DNA of 23,533 nt from a virus, in the IMG/VR virus record IMGVR_UViG_3300045738_002139, positions 1 to 23,533 of that record; one strand, 5' to 3'. The notes under the pieces were generated by a model that searched no databases, had not been told where the DNA came from, and saw only the letters and a list, made by a program, of their open reading frames with translations. Position 1 is the first letter of the stretch. Each line of letters opens with the position of its first letter. The position numbers and the translations under genes are program-made. Below, in pieces: positions 2,862 through 23,533 of this stretch.

Positions 2862-3314
2862 ATGGCAAAGCTAGGAAGATATTCTGCGAATAGAATTAAG
2901 ATCGAAGAACTAACAGCTTCAAAAACATTAGAGGTTGTTGACTGTGGAACCTTATTTTTGGTAAACCCCACTGCTGATACAACTTTAACACTTCCTTCTG
3001 CTTTCGATGCAGGCCCCGGCTGGTGGATCGACGTTATGCTTGATGAGCAGGATACATCTGACAGTGATCGCACAACTGATCAAAATGTAAATATTGCTAC
3101 TTCTGATGGCACTTTCTTGACTGGTTTCCTTGGCGCAGCCGATGGCGCTGGCGCCTCGGTTGGCAATGGTACATCACATGATCATATCGTTTTTGACGAT
3201 GACAATTCAAATTCCGGAGAAAGAGTAACAATTATAAGTCTTGGCGACCGTTTTGTTGCGCACGGATATATCGTCGACGCCACCGATACTAAATTCCACA
3301 CGGCAGCGTTGTAA
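2862..3314 (+). CDS. Tandem paralog 1, putative virion surface or decoration protein
   Basis: Unknown function. The 150-residue protein starts with a shared signature (YSANRIKIEELTASKT at about residues 6-21, then DCGTLF, then TTLTLPSAFDAGPGWW) found in the next two genes. The alternating polar and hydrophobic pattern, Thr/Gly/Asp richness and absence of membrane segments suggest a beta-sandwich structural protein. The C-terminal half contains HDHIVFDDDNS and LGDRFVAHGYIVDATDTKF. The ATG follows AAAAGGAG. Its place behind gp23 and a putative late promoter suggests a head decoration or fibre protein, but nothing in the sequence proves this. Confidence 0.8.
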   Translation: MAKLGRYSANRIKIEELTASKTLEVVDCGTLFLVNPTADTTLTLPSAFDAGPGWWIDVMLDEQDTSDSDRTTDQNVNIATSDGTFLTGFLGAADGAGASVGNGTSHDHIVFDDDNSNSGERVTIISLGDRFVAHGYIVDATDTKFHTAAL

Positions 3315-3347
3315 TGTTGACGGTACTTAAAAGGAGAACAAAATAAG

Positions 3348-3800
3348 ATGGCAAGATTAGGAAGATATTCTGTTAATAGAATTAAAATTGAAGAGTTGAC
3401 AGCCTCAAAAACGGTAACTGTCGCTGACTGCGGAACATTGTTCGTGGTTAACCCTGCTGCTGATACAACTTTAACCCTTCCTTCTGCCGTTGCTTGTGGT
3501 AAAGGATGGTGGGTCAAGGTTATGATCGATGAAGAAGATGGAGGCACGGTAGATAACGATGTAAACATTGCTATTTCTGATGGCACTTCCTTTACTGGTG
3601 TGCTCAGCACATCTGACGGCAGCGGAGCTTCAGTCGGAACGGGCGCAACCGGTACAGCCCATAGTCATATTGTATTTGATGCGGGGACGTCGACTTCGGG
3701 CGAAATGGTAAGAGTCGTTTGTCTTGGTGACCGCTTTGTCGCTCATGGACTTATCGTCGACGCCACCGATACAAAGTTCTTCACGGCAGCATTGAGCTAG
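3348..3800 (+). CDS. Tandem paralog 2, putative virion surface or decoration protein
   Basis: A 150-residue paralog of the genes on either side. It keeps RIKIEELTASKT, DCGTLFVVNPAADTTLTLP and a GKGWWVKVMIDEEDGG segment, and ends with LGDRFVAHGLIVDATDTKF like paralog 1. At the DNA level its 5' part (3375-3481) is close to paralog 3 (3856-3962), with about 8 differences in 107 bases by hand count, whereas its 3' part shares exact 20-base blocks with paralog 1 (3752-3771 and 3269-3288). The gene therefore looks mosaic. It has an AAAAGGAG ribosome site and starts 33 bases after paralog 1. Role unknown; presumed virion component. Confidence 0.8.
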   Translation: MARLGRYSVNRIKIEELTASKTVTVADCGTLFVVNPAADTTLTLPSAVACGKGWWVKVMIDEEDGGTVDNDVNIAISDGTSFTGVLSTSDGSGASVGTGATGTAHSHIVFDAGTSTSGEMVRVVCLGDRFVAHGLIVDATDTKFFTAALS

Positions 3801-3828
3801 TTAGCAATTTTTAAGGAGAATATATAAA

Positions 3829-4299
3829 ATGTCAAAAAAAGGTAATTACGCAGCTAATAGAATTAAAATTGAAGAGTTGACAGCTTCAAAAACGGTGTCG
3901 GTCGGTGACTGCGGAACATTGTTCGTGGTTAACCCTACTGCTAATACAACTTTAACCCTCCCCAGTCCAGCTGACGCCGGCGCCGGGTGGTGGTGTGAAG
4001 TTATGGTTGACGAAGAAGACGGAGGTAAGGTCGATCTCAATGTAAGTATTGACATGAGCGCCGGCGGCACCTTTCTTACTGGGCTATTAGTTGGCGCGGA
4101 TGGGACAGCAGTCGGCAAAGCTCTCGCCGATTTTGCCGATGATGACGCCATCCTTTTTCAGGGACCTCCCCAGAGCAGCGGCGACCGCGCCACCTCCGGC
4201 GCCTGGGTGGAAATTATTTGCACTGGCACTCGTTACGTCGCCAACGGCGTAATTGCTGATAATGCTAACACCATTTTCCGCAATGCTCCCTTTTCATAG
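3829..4299 (+). CDS. Tandem paralog 3, putative virion surface or decoration protein
   Basis: The third and longest paralog (156 residues). The N-terminal signature RIKIEELTASKTVSVGDCGT and the WWCEVMVDEEDGGKVD segment are conserved. The C-terminal half differs: it carries an insertion with FADDDAILFQGPPQSSGDRA and ends YVANGVIADNANTIF, lacking the HSHIVFD and VDATDTKF motifs of the other two. The ATG follows TAAGGAG, 28 bases after paralog 2. A terminator closes the array. Divergence confined to the C-terminal half suggests this is the variable or exposed part. Function not recognised. Confidence 0.8.
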   Translation: MSKKGNYAANRIKIEELTASKTVSVGDCGTLFVVNPTANTTLTLPSPADAGAGWWCEVMVDEEDGGKVDLNVSIDMSAGGTFLTGLLVGADGTAVGKALADFADDDAILFQGPPQSSGDRATSGAWVEIICTGTRYVANGVIADNANTIFRNAPFS

Positions 4300-20087: not shown

Positions 20088-21257
20088 TTGATATTTCAGC
20101 TATTAGACACGAAGCAAGAGTGTTATAAAATATTTTGCGAAGGTAAGTTATTCGACGATTATAAGAATGACAACCTTTCTCACACATGGGCTCCGTCTTC
20201 GCACGTGTCGGCTGAACGCGTTGAGTATGCGCAGATTTGGTGTAATGGAAAATCCCTTGTAGAAGTTTGTCCGGACGATCTTAAAGAGCGTCTTGTTATA
20301 CTTAACAAGAAAGCCAAAATGTATTTGCGCACATTTCATAATGCAAAAATAAATTTGCAGGATGTTTGTTTTTACGATTTGGTGCCTGAGAAATTTTTAT
20401 TGGATTTTTATGAGGTAAAGAACGAGATAACGCGCTTTGTGTTCGAGAATTACCAAAAACCTAAAAATTATGAATTTCTTAAAGACCTGCTTTTTTTCTT
20501 AAAGAGAATAGAAGAAAGAGATCTTAATTTAGATCTAGACTTTTCTAAGTTAGATGCAAACAACGGAATACTCAAATTAGATAGTTGTAATACTAAAATT
20601 TTATATAATCCCTGGGGGACTGTCACTGGCCGGCTAACAACAGACAAAAGCAGTTTTCCAATTTTGACTTTAAACAAAAATTTGCGGGGCTGTATCAAAC
20701 CACAAAACGATGCTTTCGTGGAGTTGGATTTTAATGCTGCCGAGTTACGAGTATTGCTCGGACTTCTCGGCGAAAAACAACCCGATGAAGATATTCACGC
20801 ATGGTTGGGCAAAAATGTCTTTAATGACAAGTTCAGCAGAGAAGAGGTAAAAAAGAAAGTTTTTGCCTGGCTATATAATCCGAATGCAAAGAATAAAAAA
20901 TTAAATGAGTTTTTAAATCGTGATAAATTATATGAAAGATATTTTCACAATGATTGTGTCTTAACACCGTTTTACAGGATAATTCCGGTGGAAAAAGAAA
21001 AGGCAGTTAATTATTTGATACAGAGTACTTCCAGCGACATGCTATTAACATCTGCTATAAAGGTTGATAAGCTTTTGCAAAACAAAAAATCGTTTGTTAG
21101 TTTTTGTATCCACGATAGTGTCGTTATTGATTTATCTTTTGAAGATAGAGATATGATCGAATCGTTAAAAGATAAATTTTCCGAAACAGCGTTTGGAGAA
21201 CTCAAAACAAATCTGAGCTTGGGAAAAGATTTCGGGAGTATGACAAAAATTTCATGA
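20088..21257 (+). CDS. Compact family A DNA polymerase
   Basis: Synthesises DNA. Family A motifs are all present in order: TGR at 180-182 with a following FPILTLNKNLR; motif A DFNAAELR with Asp214 and Glu219; motif B R251-x3-K255-x3-F259-x3-Y263; NYLIQSTSSDMLLTSAI at 308-324; and motif C His342-Asp343-Ser344, where Ser replaces the usual Glu. No 3'-5' exonuclease domain fits in 389 residues. Compared with E. coli Pol I numbering, motif A to B is 37 residues instead of 49, and motif B to catalytic Asp 92 instead of 128, so fingers and palm are shortened. The start is TTG at 20088: the codon at 20085 is a stop, GAGG lies 5 bases upstream, and the next ATG is at codon 78. It overlaps the next gene by 4 bases. 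Confidence 0.85.
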   Translation: MIFQLLDTKQECYKIFCEGKLFDDYKNDNLSHTWAPSSHVSAERVEYAQIWCNGKSLVEVCPDDLKERLVILNKKAKMYLRTFHNAKINLQDVCFYDLVPEKFLLDFYEVKNEITRFVFENYQKPKNYEFLKDLLFFLKRIEERDLNLDLDFSKLDANNGILKLDSCNTKILYNPWGTVTGRLTTDKSSFPILTLNKNLRGCIKPQNDAFVELDFNAAELRVLLGLLGEKQPDEDIHAWLGKNVFNDKFSREEVKKKVFAWLYNPNAKNKKLNEFLNRDKLYERYFHNDCVLTPFYRIIPVEKEKAVNYLIQSTSSDMLLTSAIKVDKLLQNKKSFVSFCIHDSVVIDLSFEDRDMIESLKDKFSETAFGELKTNLSLGKDFGSMTKIS

Positions 21258-22093
21258 ATATATTAGGCTTAGGGACTGCGGGCTGCAAAATAGCCAAAAA
21301 ACTCGAAAACTATCCTCAATACAATGCTTTTTTTATTGACGTAAAAAACGATGGAGGATGTAAGAATTTTTTTAAGATCGAGGAACAATCAACTCATGAG
21401 GATTATGAGACGAATTATAAATCCGTTAATTTACAAAATATTATAGGTGAAACAACACTAATAACTGCCGGCACTGGAAAGATAACCGGTCTTTTGCTGA
21501 GACTCTTGGAACAACTTAAAAATCATAAATTAACAGTATTATATATTAAACCAGACATGTCGACAGCATCAGAAAATGCTGTGTTGAGAGAAAAAGTAGT
21601 TTTTGGTATCCTGCAGCAATATGCGAGATCAAGCCTGTTATCTAGATTATACATTGTTTCCAATATCGCCACCGAAGCCGTATTAGAAAAAGTATCCGTT
21701 GTAAGTTACTGGGACGATATCAACGAGGTTATATCGAGTACTTTTCACATGCTTAACGTATTTGAAAATACTGAGCCGCTTTTATCAACGCTCGCAGACG
21801 TGGAAAAGACAAGCAAAATTGCCACATTGGGTGTTGTAAGCTATAAAAACCTGGATGAGAAGATTTTTTATGATTTGCAAAAACCGAGATTAAAGAAATA
21901 CTTCTTTGGCATATCAGAAAAAACTTTAAATGAAGAAAAAGATTTACTTCAAAAGATAAGGTCTTACGTTAAAGACAAATCAGACGAGAGATGCAACGCA
22001 TGCTTTGCGATATATTCAACAAATTACGAACAAGATTATGTTTATGTAGCACAGTATGCGTCGCTTATTCAAGAACAAAACCTTGACTCTTAA
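21254..22093 (+). CDS. FtsZ/tubulin-like protein, strongly diverged
   Basis: A 279-residue protein whose first 145 residues follow the order of FtsZ GTPase elements. MNILGLGTAGCKIAKKLE (1-18) parallels the FtsZ glycine loop and helix (IGVGGGGGNAVNRM). YNAFFIDVKNDG matches FIAVNTD. TLITAGTGKITGLLLRLLEQ (68-87) matches AAGMGGGTGTGAAPVIAEI, with the tubulin signature reduced to Ala-Gly-Thr-Gly-Lys-Ile-Thr-Gly. LTVLYIKPDMSTASENAVLR parallels TVGVVTKPF. LYIVSNIATEAV resembles LIVIPN. Loss of glycines in the signature means GTP binding or hydrolysis is uncertain. The C-terminal half is not recognisable. The ATG overlaps the polymerase stop (ATGA), so the two are translationally coupled. All 7 arginines use AGA or AGG. 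Other Rossmann-like nucleotide-binding folds remain possible. Confidence 0.5.
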   Translation: MNILGLGTAGCKIAKKLENYPQYNAFFIDVKNDGGCKNFFKIEEQSTHEDYETNYKSVNLQNIIGETTLITAGTGKITGLLLRLLEQLKNHKLTVLYIKPDMSTASENAVLREKVVFGILQQYARSSLLSRLYIVSNIATEAVLEKVSVVSYWDDINEVISSTFHMLNVFENTEPLLSTLADVEKTSKIATLGVVSYKNLDEKIFYDLQKPRLKKYFFGISEKTLNEEKDLLQKIRSYVKDKSDERCNACFAIYSTNYEQDYVYVAQYASLIQEQNLDS

Positions 22094-22174: not shown

Positions 22175-22924
22175 ATGGGTATTGATTTAGCAAAAATGAA
22201 GGCGAAACGCGACGCCTTGGAAAATCGCGGAGGAAATAGCGCCTTTTGGCGTCCAGAGGATGGAGAAACCGTCCTTCGGATCCTTCCAACTTCTGACGGA
22301 GATCCGTTTAAGGAGTATTGGTTTCACTACAATCTGGGCAAGAACCCGGGTTTCTTGAGCCCGAAGAAGAATTTTGGAGAAGATGATCCGCTCAACGATT
22401 TCGTTCGCCAACTTTATAACGAGGGCTCTGATGAGAGCATCAAGATGGCAAAGAATCTTAGCGCGCGTCAGCGCTTCTTCTCGCCGGTTCTTGTTCGAGG
22501 ACAAGAGGAGAAAGGAGTACGACTATGGGGCTTTGGAAAAACCGCATACAAGGAGCTTCTGAATCTCGTTCTCAATCCGGAGTATGGTGATATTACGGGC
22601 GTTAACGAGGGCACTGACCTTGTTATCAACTATGGTAAGCCTCCGGGAGCACAGTTCCCGCAGACCACTATTGTCCCTCGTCGTAAGTCTTCGCCGCTGG
22701 CAAAGACGGATGACGACATCGCTACACTTCTCGATTCGATTCCGGATTTCGATGAGGTTTTTGAGTCGGCTCGCAAGACGCCGAGTGAGATTCAGCAAAT
22801 GCTTGATGAGTATCTGTTGGGCGAAGATGACGCGGAAGACTTGTCGACTGAAACGACCAAGTATGAGACTAGTTCTCCTGCGAACGACGTCGACAAAGCG
22901 TTCGATGAACTATTGGGATCATAA
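22175..22924 (+). CDS. 32: Single-stranded DNA-binding protein gp32
   Basis: Coats single-stranded DNA in replication, recombination and repair. The 249-residue protein has a basic N-terminus (DLAKMKAKRDAL), a core with FWRPEDGETVLRILPTSDGD, then FHYNLGKNPGFLSPKKNFGE, FFSPVLVRGQEEKGVRLWGF and PEYGDITGVNEGTDLVI, and an acidic tail from about 177 ending DVDKAFDELLGS, as in the T4-like family. His51 sits where T4-type gp32 has its zinc histidine, but the expected cysteines are Ser62, Asp71 and Asn74; the protein contains no cysteine at all. All 12 arginines use CGN codons, unlike its neighbours. A strong AAGGAG site precedes the ATG, a hairpin lies in the leader and a terminator follows, so it can be expressed alone. 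Confidence 0.92.
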   Translation: MGIDLAKMKAKRDALENRGGNSAFWRPEDGETVLRILPTSDGDPFKEYWFHYNLGKNPGFLSPKKNFGEDDPLNDFVRQLYNEGSDESIKMAKNLSARQRFFSPVLVRGQEEKGVRLWGFGKTAYKELLNLVLNPEYGDITGVNEGTDLVINYGKPPGAQFPQTTIVPRRKSSPLAKTDDDIATLLDSIPDFDEVFESARKTPSEIQQMLDEYLLGEDDAEDLSTETTKYETSSPANDVDKAFDELLGS

Positions 22925-22972: not shown

Positions 22973-23152
22973 ATGATTATTAAACATTATCACGAAGTTC
23001 TGCCGCCAGCTTCCCCTGGAAGCGCACGTAACAACCGTCCTTTTTCCAACGAGAGAATTGACATAGGGCCGGCCGTAGTGGTCAACATCGGTAAAAAAAA
23101 ACAAGAAGAATTTGTCACTTACGACAGGTTTGGCCGAAAGAAGAAATTTTAA
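22973..23152 (+). CDS. Small basic protein of unknown function
   Basis: A 59-codon frame from ATG to TAA that fills the gap between gp32 and uvsX. It starts MIIKHYHEVLPPASPGSARN and ends VTYDRFGRKKKF; net charge is positive and the middle contains RIDIGPAVVVNIGKKK. Amino-acid composition and codons look like real coding sequence, and it ends 1 base before the uvsX ATG, suggesting coupled translation. There is no clear ribosome site: the start is 5 bases after the T-run of the gp32 terminator, so it may depend on read-through or on another mode of initiation. No function can be assigned. Confidence 0.55.
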   Translation: MIIKHYHEVLPPASPGSARNNRPFSNERIDIGPAVVVNIGKKKQEEFVTYDRFGRKKKF

Positions 23153-23153
23153 G

Positions 23154-23533
23154 ATGGCGAAGAAAGCAACTAAATTAGGCAGACTAAATCTCAAAGAAAT
23201 GAGGAATTTGGTCAATAAGAAAGCTGGTACAGAGATCGCTTTTTCGTTATTAAAAGAAAATCCAACTGATGTACGCAAATGGATTTCGACCGGCTCCAGA
23301 TGGCTAGACAGTATCGTCTGCAAGGGCAAACTCGCTGGGATACCACTTGGAAAAATTGTTGAGATCGCCGGCGAGGAAAGCACAGGCAAATCTTATATGG
23401 CAGCACAAATTGCTGCCAATGCTCAGAAAATGGGCATCGATGTAGTATACTTCGATTCAGAATCTGCCATTGATAGCGTATTTTTGGAGAGAGTAGGCTG
23501 TTGTTTAGATGAAAATCTTCCTGAAGGAATGGG
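23154..23533 (+). CDS. uvsX: UvsX/RecA-family recombinase (3' end missing)
   Basis: Strand-exchange ATPase that forms filaments on single-stranded DNA together with gp32. The first 126 codons are in the window. Visible are the linker STGSRWLDSIVCKG (45-58; RecA family: S-T-G-x-x-x-L-D), the GKIVEIAGEESTGKS segment with the Walker A box at residues 73-80, and VVYFDSESAID at 97-107 with Glu103 in the place of the RecA catalytic glutamate. The Walker A, Gly-Glu-Glu-Ser-Thr-Gly-Lys-Ser, is closer to bacterial RecA than to T4 UvsX (GPSKSFKS). The start is the ATG one base after the preceding stop. Proximity to gp32 fits their joint role. Confidence 0.92.
   Translation, partial: MAKKATKLGRLNLKEMRNLVNKKAGTEIAFSLLKENPTDVRKWISTGSRWLDSIVCKGKLAGIPLGKIVEIAGEESTGKSYMAAQIAANAQKMGIDVVYFDSESAIDSVFLERVGCCLDENLPEGM

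Follow-up and report, generated by a model that had tools for sequence, protein, structure and literature searches.

A predicted tubulin/FtsZ-fold protein with degenerate GTPase loops in the replication block of a marine phage lineage

The phage tubulins known so far either partition plasmid-like prophages or, in jumbo phages that form a nucleus, move or centre the DNA. The virus record IMGVR_UViG_3300045738_002139 raises a different question, namely what an FtsZ-like protein is doing in a gene set between a DNA polymerase and a single-stranded DNA binding protein. We analyzed the record over its whole length of 23,533 nucleotides (the window), which also encodes a gp23-type capsid protein and a tail sheath. 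The genes of interest are given below.

20088..21257, + strand: short family A DNA polymerase, 389 aa (Pfam DNA_pol_A, E 1.1e-12)
21254..22093, + strand: protein of 279 aa with a predicted, degenerate tubulin/FtsZ fold (AlphaFold2, Foldseek, hhalign)
22175..22924, + strand: gp32 single-stranded DNA binding protein (Pfam gp32, E 5.1e-14)
23079..23531, + strand: 5' part of a UvsX/RecA recombinase gene, truncated by the window end (clusters with L024:10756-11898; Pfam RecA, E 2.2e-30)

The initial annotation of this DNA had described a start codon overlapping the stop codon of a family A polymerase, with gp32 and uvsX downstream, and this arrangement was borne out by the Pfam matches and by a 4-base overlap (ATGA) in the window sequence, where the TGA of the polymerase and the ATG of the tubulin-fold gene meet. 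Elsewhere in the window (2862-4299, + strand), the capsid gene is followed by three consecutive paralogous ORFs of 150-156 aa, which come from tandem duplication.

Predicted fold of the 279-aa protein

When Pfam, PHROGs and PDB sequences were searched with the single sequence and with profiles, nothing significant was obtained for the 279-aa protein, and some family members touched the Pfam Tubulin model at the glycine loop. The AlphaFold2 model, built from 67 aligned sequences and no templates, had a mean pLDDT of 95.1 and a pTM of 0.92. Using this model, Foldseek returned 608 PDB matches at E <= 0.001 (best E 3.9e-13), and the top 50 were FtsZ, TubZ or tubulin only, with query TM scores of 0.59-0.71 and 9-16% identity. 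In the viral library, the best match was annotated as phage FtsZ (TM 0.74), followed by phage proteins annotated as "cell division protein" and "tubulin". The predicted structure contains a long central helix and a C-terminal domain, and helix H8 is absent. At about 6 Å across the full length, the rmsd points to a shift of one domain of the protein relative to the other.

Profile-profile comparison gave sequence evidence that is independent of AlphaFold. With hhalign, the family scored 37.3 against canonical phage tubulins and FtsZ merged into one profile (P 2.8e-4, HHalign probability only 41%), and the match covered 184 colinear columns from T1 to H7/T7. In the controls, the highest score was 23.0 for 100 column-shuffled profiles and 19.9 for unrelated profiles taken from these phages. 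Among the hhalign comparisons, the merged profile was the only convincing one: E. coli-type FtsZ alone gave a weak signal (P 0.09), canonical phage tubulin alone was marginal (P 0.005), and the match to phiKZ PhuZ was not significant (P 0.05, 28 columns). Because the HHalign probability is just 41% and the single-profile signals are weaker, we place most weight for the fold on the structure. Taken at the level of fold, the model supports membership of the tubulin/FtsZ superfamily, with a Rossmann-like GTPase domain, a long H7 and a C-terminal domain. The FtsZ/tubulin fold proposed earlier from the sequence was thus right according to AlphaFold2 and Foldseek, and the profile-profile comparison agrees.

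The same structure search bears on the outcome that had been named in advance as refuting, a plain NAD-type Rossmann protein resembling FtsZ in the glycine loop only. Single members of the family do give weak Pfam matches to the TrkA_N and saccharopine dehydrogenase NADP domains (best E 0.016). However, the top 50 PDB matches extend across both domains, the profile alignment runs colinearly from T1 to H7, and the model has the long central helix and C-terminal domain. The NAD-type outcome did not occur, and we regard this explanation as hardly credible.

Conserved pocket residues and degenerate catalytic loops

The positions that carry the comparison with tubulins are the following.

21266..21295, + strand: T1 glycine loop, residues 5-14 (GLGTAGCKIA), with G5 and G7 invariant or nearly so in 67 relatives and in the FtsZ T1 register
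21467..21490, + strand: degenerate T4 loop at the tubulin signature position, residues 72-79 (AGTGKITG), from the alignment of 67 relatives
21614..21631, + strand: residues 121-126 (Q-x-Y-x-R-S), where helix H5 ends, the patch with the highest conservation in the family (76 sequences)
21662..21664, + strand: Asn137 at the T6 position in the guanine pocket, matched in the alignments by the conserved Asn of FtsZ IPND
21707..21724, + strand: start of helix H7, residues 152-157, with Tyr152, an aromatic residue at 153 and Asn157 (guanine pocket)
21746..21814, + strand: end of H7 (His165, Asn168) and the shortened T7 region up to residue 187

All the motifs named in the initial annotation are present, LGLGTAG at residues 4-10, FFIDV at 26-30, AGTGKITG at 72-79 and TVLYIKPD at 94-101, with one small slip in the residues after the FFID strand, which read Asp-Val-Lys-Asn-Asp and not Asp-Lys-Asn-Asp. 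Their order is beyond chance, as the motifs are kept in the 67 aligned relatives, dN/dS is about 0.095, and the register with FtsZ and phage tubulin exceeds all 100 shuffles. The ratio was obtained by comparison with the 81% identical homologue L001 (dN 0.11, dS 1.16), and the gene is under strong purifying selection.

The T1 loop is kept across the family as GLGxAGC, in register with FtsZ by profile. In the T4 loop, G73 is found in 66 of the 67 relatives, G75 in 60, S/T78 in 61 and G79 in 54, which gives the consensus AG(S/A)Gx(I/V)(S/T)G. This does not match the GTPase signature GGGTG(S/T)G, so the break noticed earlier in one sequence is real and family-wide. The base pocket is well preserved: position 137 is Asn in 65/67 relatives, Y152 is present in 64/67, an aromatic residue at 153 in 61/67, and N157 in 65/67. 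By profile register these residues line up with those that hold the guanine in FtsZ and tubulin. In a diverged clade, most T4 glycines are gone, yet Asn137 (9/9), Tyr152 and Asn157 stay.

The T7 region is six residues shorter than that of the canonical phage tubulin, and no catalytic acid corresponding to NxDxxD of FtsZ is conserved among the 67 relatives. The highest position is residue 174, acidic in 46/67, and NxD/E occurs at residues 172-174 in 33/67. Outside the pocket, Q121, R125, S126, H165 and N168 are invariant in 76 sequences, and Y123 is found in 75 of them. Judged by topology, these conserved ends of H5 and H7 would lie opposite the nucleotide in the GTPase domain, and in tubulins this end of the domain contacts the next subunit. 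At the C-terminus, the protein stops about 10 residues past the last strand; the FtsZ linker and conserved peptide are absent, and the model has no helix beyond that strand which could correspond to PhuZ H11 with its tail.

The replication block and its phages

The gene is core to the marine exo-T4 phage lineage. Pattern and tblastn scans of IMG/VR gave 21 relatives at first and then 323, while 50,697 phage records and a pattern scan of GTDB genomes gave no match to the protein. The literature that we covered, with most subscription papers and all preprints outside its scope, held no description of tubulin-fold proteins in this lineage. The initial term "T4-like phage" applies in a broad sense, and the nearest named relatives are of the type of Flavobacterium phage immuto, Microcystis phage Mel-JY01 and Rhodothermus phage RM378.

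At 99 loci with the tubulin-fold gene, the polymerase lies beside it upstream in 90 and gp32 lies downstream in 93, and the block continues after gp32 with RecA/UvsX, a 5'-3' exonuclease, a DnaB-type helicase and a B12-type ribonucleotide reductase. Conversely, when related polymerase loci with at least 2 kb downstream were examined, 64/65 carried the gene, usually directly before gp32; these loci are close relatives, and the sole exception (L300) has just 2.3 kb downstream. The link to replication is therefore stronger than the single overlap first noticed, as about 90 of the 99 loci are flanked in this way, but the wording "coupled to a DNA polymerase" was too strong because other genes intervene. 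The 4-base overlap is found in 29 loci, and about one quarter to one third of loci have one or more genes between the polymerase and the tubulin-fold gene, so constant translational coupling was dropped as an explanation. The intervening gene is most often MazG-like (cluster 14, about 105-112 aa, for example L079:7652-7990), found in about 19 loci. At L061:1825-3750, and also in L060, this place is taken by a lipoprotein-like gene of 641 aa with repeated CDGIDNDCDGLIDE motifs and a VWA-like part, which may hint at the host group. Among the homologues, of which the longest ORF has 301 aa, we found none fused to polymerase or gp32, and no TubR-type DNA-binding gene is adjacent, the direct neighbours being polymerase and gp32. 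The divergence of the protein tracks that of the polymerase, exonuclease and helicase (r 0.89-0.91), which shows co-inheritance alone and was not taken as a sign of specific coupling to the polymerase.

Distant phages (immuto, Mel-JY01 and the uncultured huge phage LR756508) share this block, with different genes occupying the slot, and for this reason acquisition of the tubulin-fold gene by the ancestor of the lineage, followed by retention, is most likely. In distant relatives without the tubulin-fold gene, at L293:7785-8174 and L291:1346-1801, the slot between polymerase and gp32 is filled by a small conserved protein of 129-151 aa with an HRKK-TNTLYTIN motif.

The short polymerase has invariant family A motif residues. 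In 14 large genomes of the lineage, we found no family B polymerase, no T4-type clamp and no PolA-type exonuclease domain; T4 served as the positive control for the C-terminal clamp model, and clamp models may miss divergent clamps. The short gene is the sole PolA match in 12 of these genomes, and the other two have no PF00476 match, which means that divergent copies escape such models. Immuto (NC_055915.1) has two family A polymerases, a short one beside gp32 (1-1326) and a full-size one with an exonuclease domain (about 37.9-40.2 kb), so the short enzyme is not necessarily the main replicase in every phage. Replacement of a sliding clamp by the tubulin-fold protein was also considered, and this idea is weakened because immuto and Mel-JY01, both without the gene, give no gp45 match either.

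Some members of the lineage have a second tubulin. This protein of 344 aa, with intact tubulin loops that include the GGGGGTGS and FDSKD motifs, is encoded on two contigs of the family (L102:17-1051 and L101:2508-3542; also loci L110-L189). It matches FtsZ by profile with a probability of 95.6%, and its model (pLDDT 86.5) has a best fold match of E 3.7e-19, with CetZ, TubZ and FtsZ as the nearest PDB folds. The gene lies in the virion module near capsid and prohead-protease-like genes and has at least 160 related contigs in IMG/VR, many from marine T4-type phages, with no match in phage records. All eight genomes of at least 130 kb with the canonical tubulin also carry the degenerate protein, and six large genomes have the degenerate protein with no detectable second tubulin. 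In most canonical-tubulin genomes, the degenerate protein has decayed further in T1 (GIGNAAS) and in the T4 glycines, as in L274-L280 (genomes G056, G058, G060, G062 and G066-G068), and the pocket residues stay. The canonical and the further decayed proteins could form a possible active/inactive pair.

Possible roles and comparison with known systems

The fixed place of a tubulin/FtsZ relative among DNA-copying genes suggests that, in ocean phages, viral DNA replication involves a cytoskeleton-type protein. Our main reading, with a probability of roughly 0.4, is that the 279-aa protein is a minimal and highly divergent tubulin-fold protein which serves as a stable scaffold of the replication machinery. 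It would still bind guanine nucleotide in the retained base pocket, and hydrolysis would be poor or absent, given the degenerate T4 phosphate loop and the lack of conserved catalytic acids in T7. As a head-to-tail scaffold or a short oligomer, it may hold or organize the short family A polymerase, gp32, the recombinase and the helicase at one site in the cell. The retention of pocket residues even where T4 glycines are lost, the flanking by polymerase and gp32, the presence at 64/65 loci with low dN/dS, and the strong conservation of the H5/H7 ends, a putative subunit-contact face, all favour the scaffold. A precedent is the actin-like AlpC of Corynebacterium prophage CGP3, which is required for efficient phage DNA replication (PMC4446434). 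Several points count against it: with its T4 loop degenerate the protein may bind no nucleotide at all, especially in the diverged clade, the acidic residue at position 174 in 46/67 leaves room for weak hydrolysis, and synteny may mirror a shared time of expression and not physical contact. The distance correlations add co-inheritance only, and this block also serves replication in the distant relatives, which have no tubulin-fold gene. In an extended form, which we hold more tentatively, a hydrolysis-dead tubulin fold would be a core part or scaffold of a replication machine with a minimal family A polymerase and, in part of the lineage, would act beside or co-assemble with a GTPase-competent second tubulin.

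The fixed place between polymerase and gp32 and the degenerate GTPase loops would equally suit a monomeric or dimeric accessory subunit that does not polymerize, for example a cofactor of the polymerase or gp32 in processivity, loading or guanine-nucleotide sensing. A short polymerase with no detected exonuclease, in large genomes with no T4-type clamp found, fits such a role, but the gp45 result in relatives without the gene means that clamp absence does not call for the tubulin-fold protein, clamp models may overlook divergent clamps, and the conserved H5/H7 ends fit a subunit interface; we consider the accessory subunit somewhat unlikely. Still less probable is a cytomotive filament of PhuZ or TubZ type that would serve to centre or segregate capsids or phage DNA and would owe its dynamics to altered hydrolysis or to the canonical second tubulin. 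The fold is the same, the T4 loop of phiKZ PhuZ is also non-standard (GGASGST), and the canonical tubulin co-occurs in eight large genomes; against this, there is no conserved T7 acid, no TubZ/PhuZ-type C-terminal tail and no TubR-like neighbour, the PhuZ profile match is not significant, and the six large genomes give no detectable partner tubulin. Phages that inhibit FtsZ are known, and an FtsZ fold with degenerate catalytic loops could be a decoy which caps or poisons the division ring of the host so that the cell keeps growing during infection. The decoy seems improbable, because 9-16% identity to FtsZ is a poor fit for co-polymerization and the gene sits in the replication block, kept as strictly as the replication genes. 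A tubulin-fold family that is cryptic at the sequence level and core to the replication block in a widespread marine lineage would give the superfamily a new role, and it would show that the superfamily is wider in phages than sequence libraries reveal. In addition, several phages encode a tubulin-fold protein with intact GTPase loops together with a degenerate one, which makes an evolved paired system testable.

Compared with known systems, the protein is not FtsZ, TubZ or PhuZ and is not classed with the GTPases proper, since it departs from them in the T4 signature, the T7 acids, the C-terminal parts and the neighbours. With FtsZ it shares the two-domain fold with a central helix and, in register, the T1 loop and the guanine-pocket Asn positions; it is shorter, lacks GGGTG(S/T)G, NxDxxD in T7, H8 and the FtsA/ZipA-binding C-terminal tail, and belongs to a phage replication block, whereas FtsZ is a division gene. 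TubZ is similar in fold (query TM up to 0.69 with 4ei7) and is likewise carried by mobile genomes, but its solved chains have about 380-414 residues compared with 279, and the phage protein lacks the C-terminal H11 and tail, has no TubR-like neighbour and has degenerate catalytic loops. PhuZ is also a phage-encoded tubulin fold with a non-standard T4 loop. In contrast to PhuZ, the 279-aa protein has no C-terminal tail, gives a profile P of 0.05, and is encoded between polymerase and gp32 in phages of about 155-203 kb whose structural genes are T4-type, not phiKZ-type. The canonical 344-aa phage tubulin (L102:17-1051) shares the virus lineage and the fold, and its joint profile with FtsZ is the best sequence match; it is longer, has intact motifs, lies in the virion module and occurs in only part of the lineage. 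AlpC has an actin fold, uses ATP, is linked to DNA via the adaptor AlpA and has no homology to the tubulin-fold protein, and the likeness is one of function only, that of a phage cytoskeletal protein serving DNA replication (PMC4446434).
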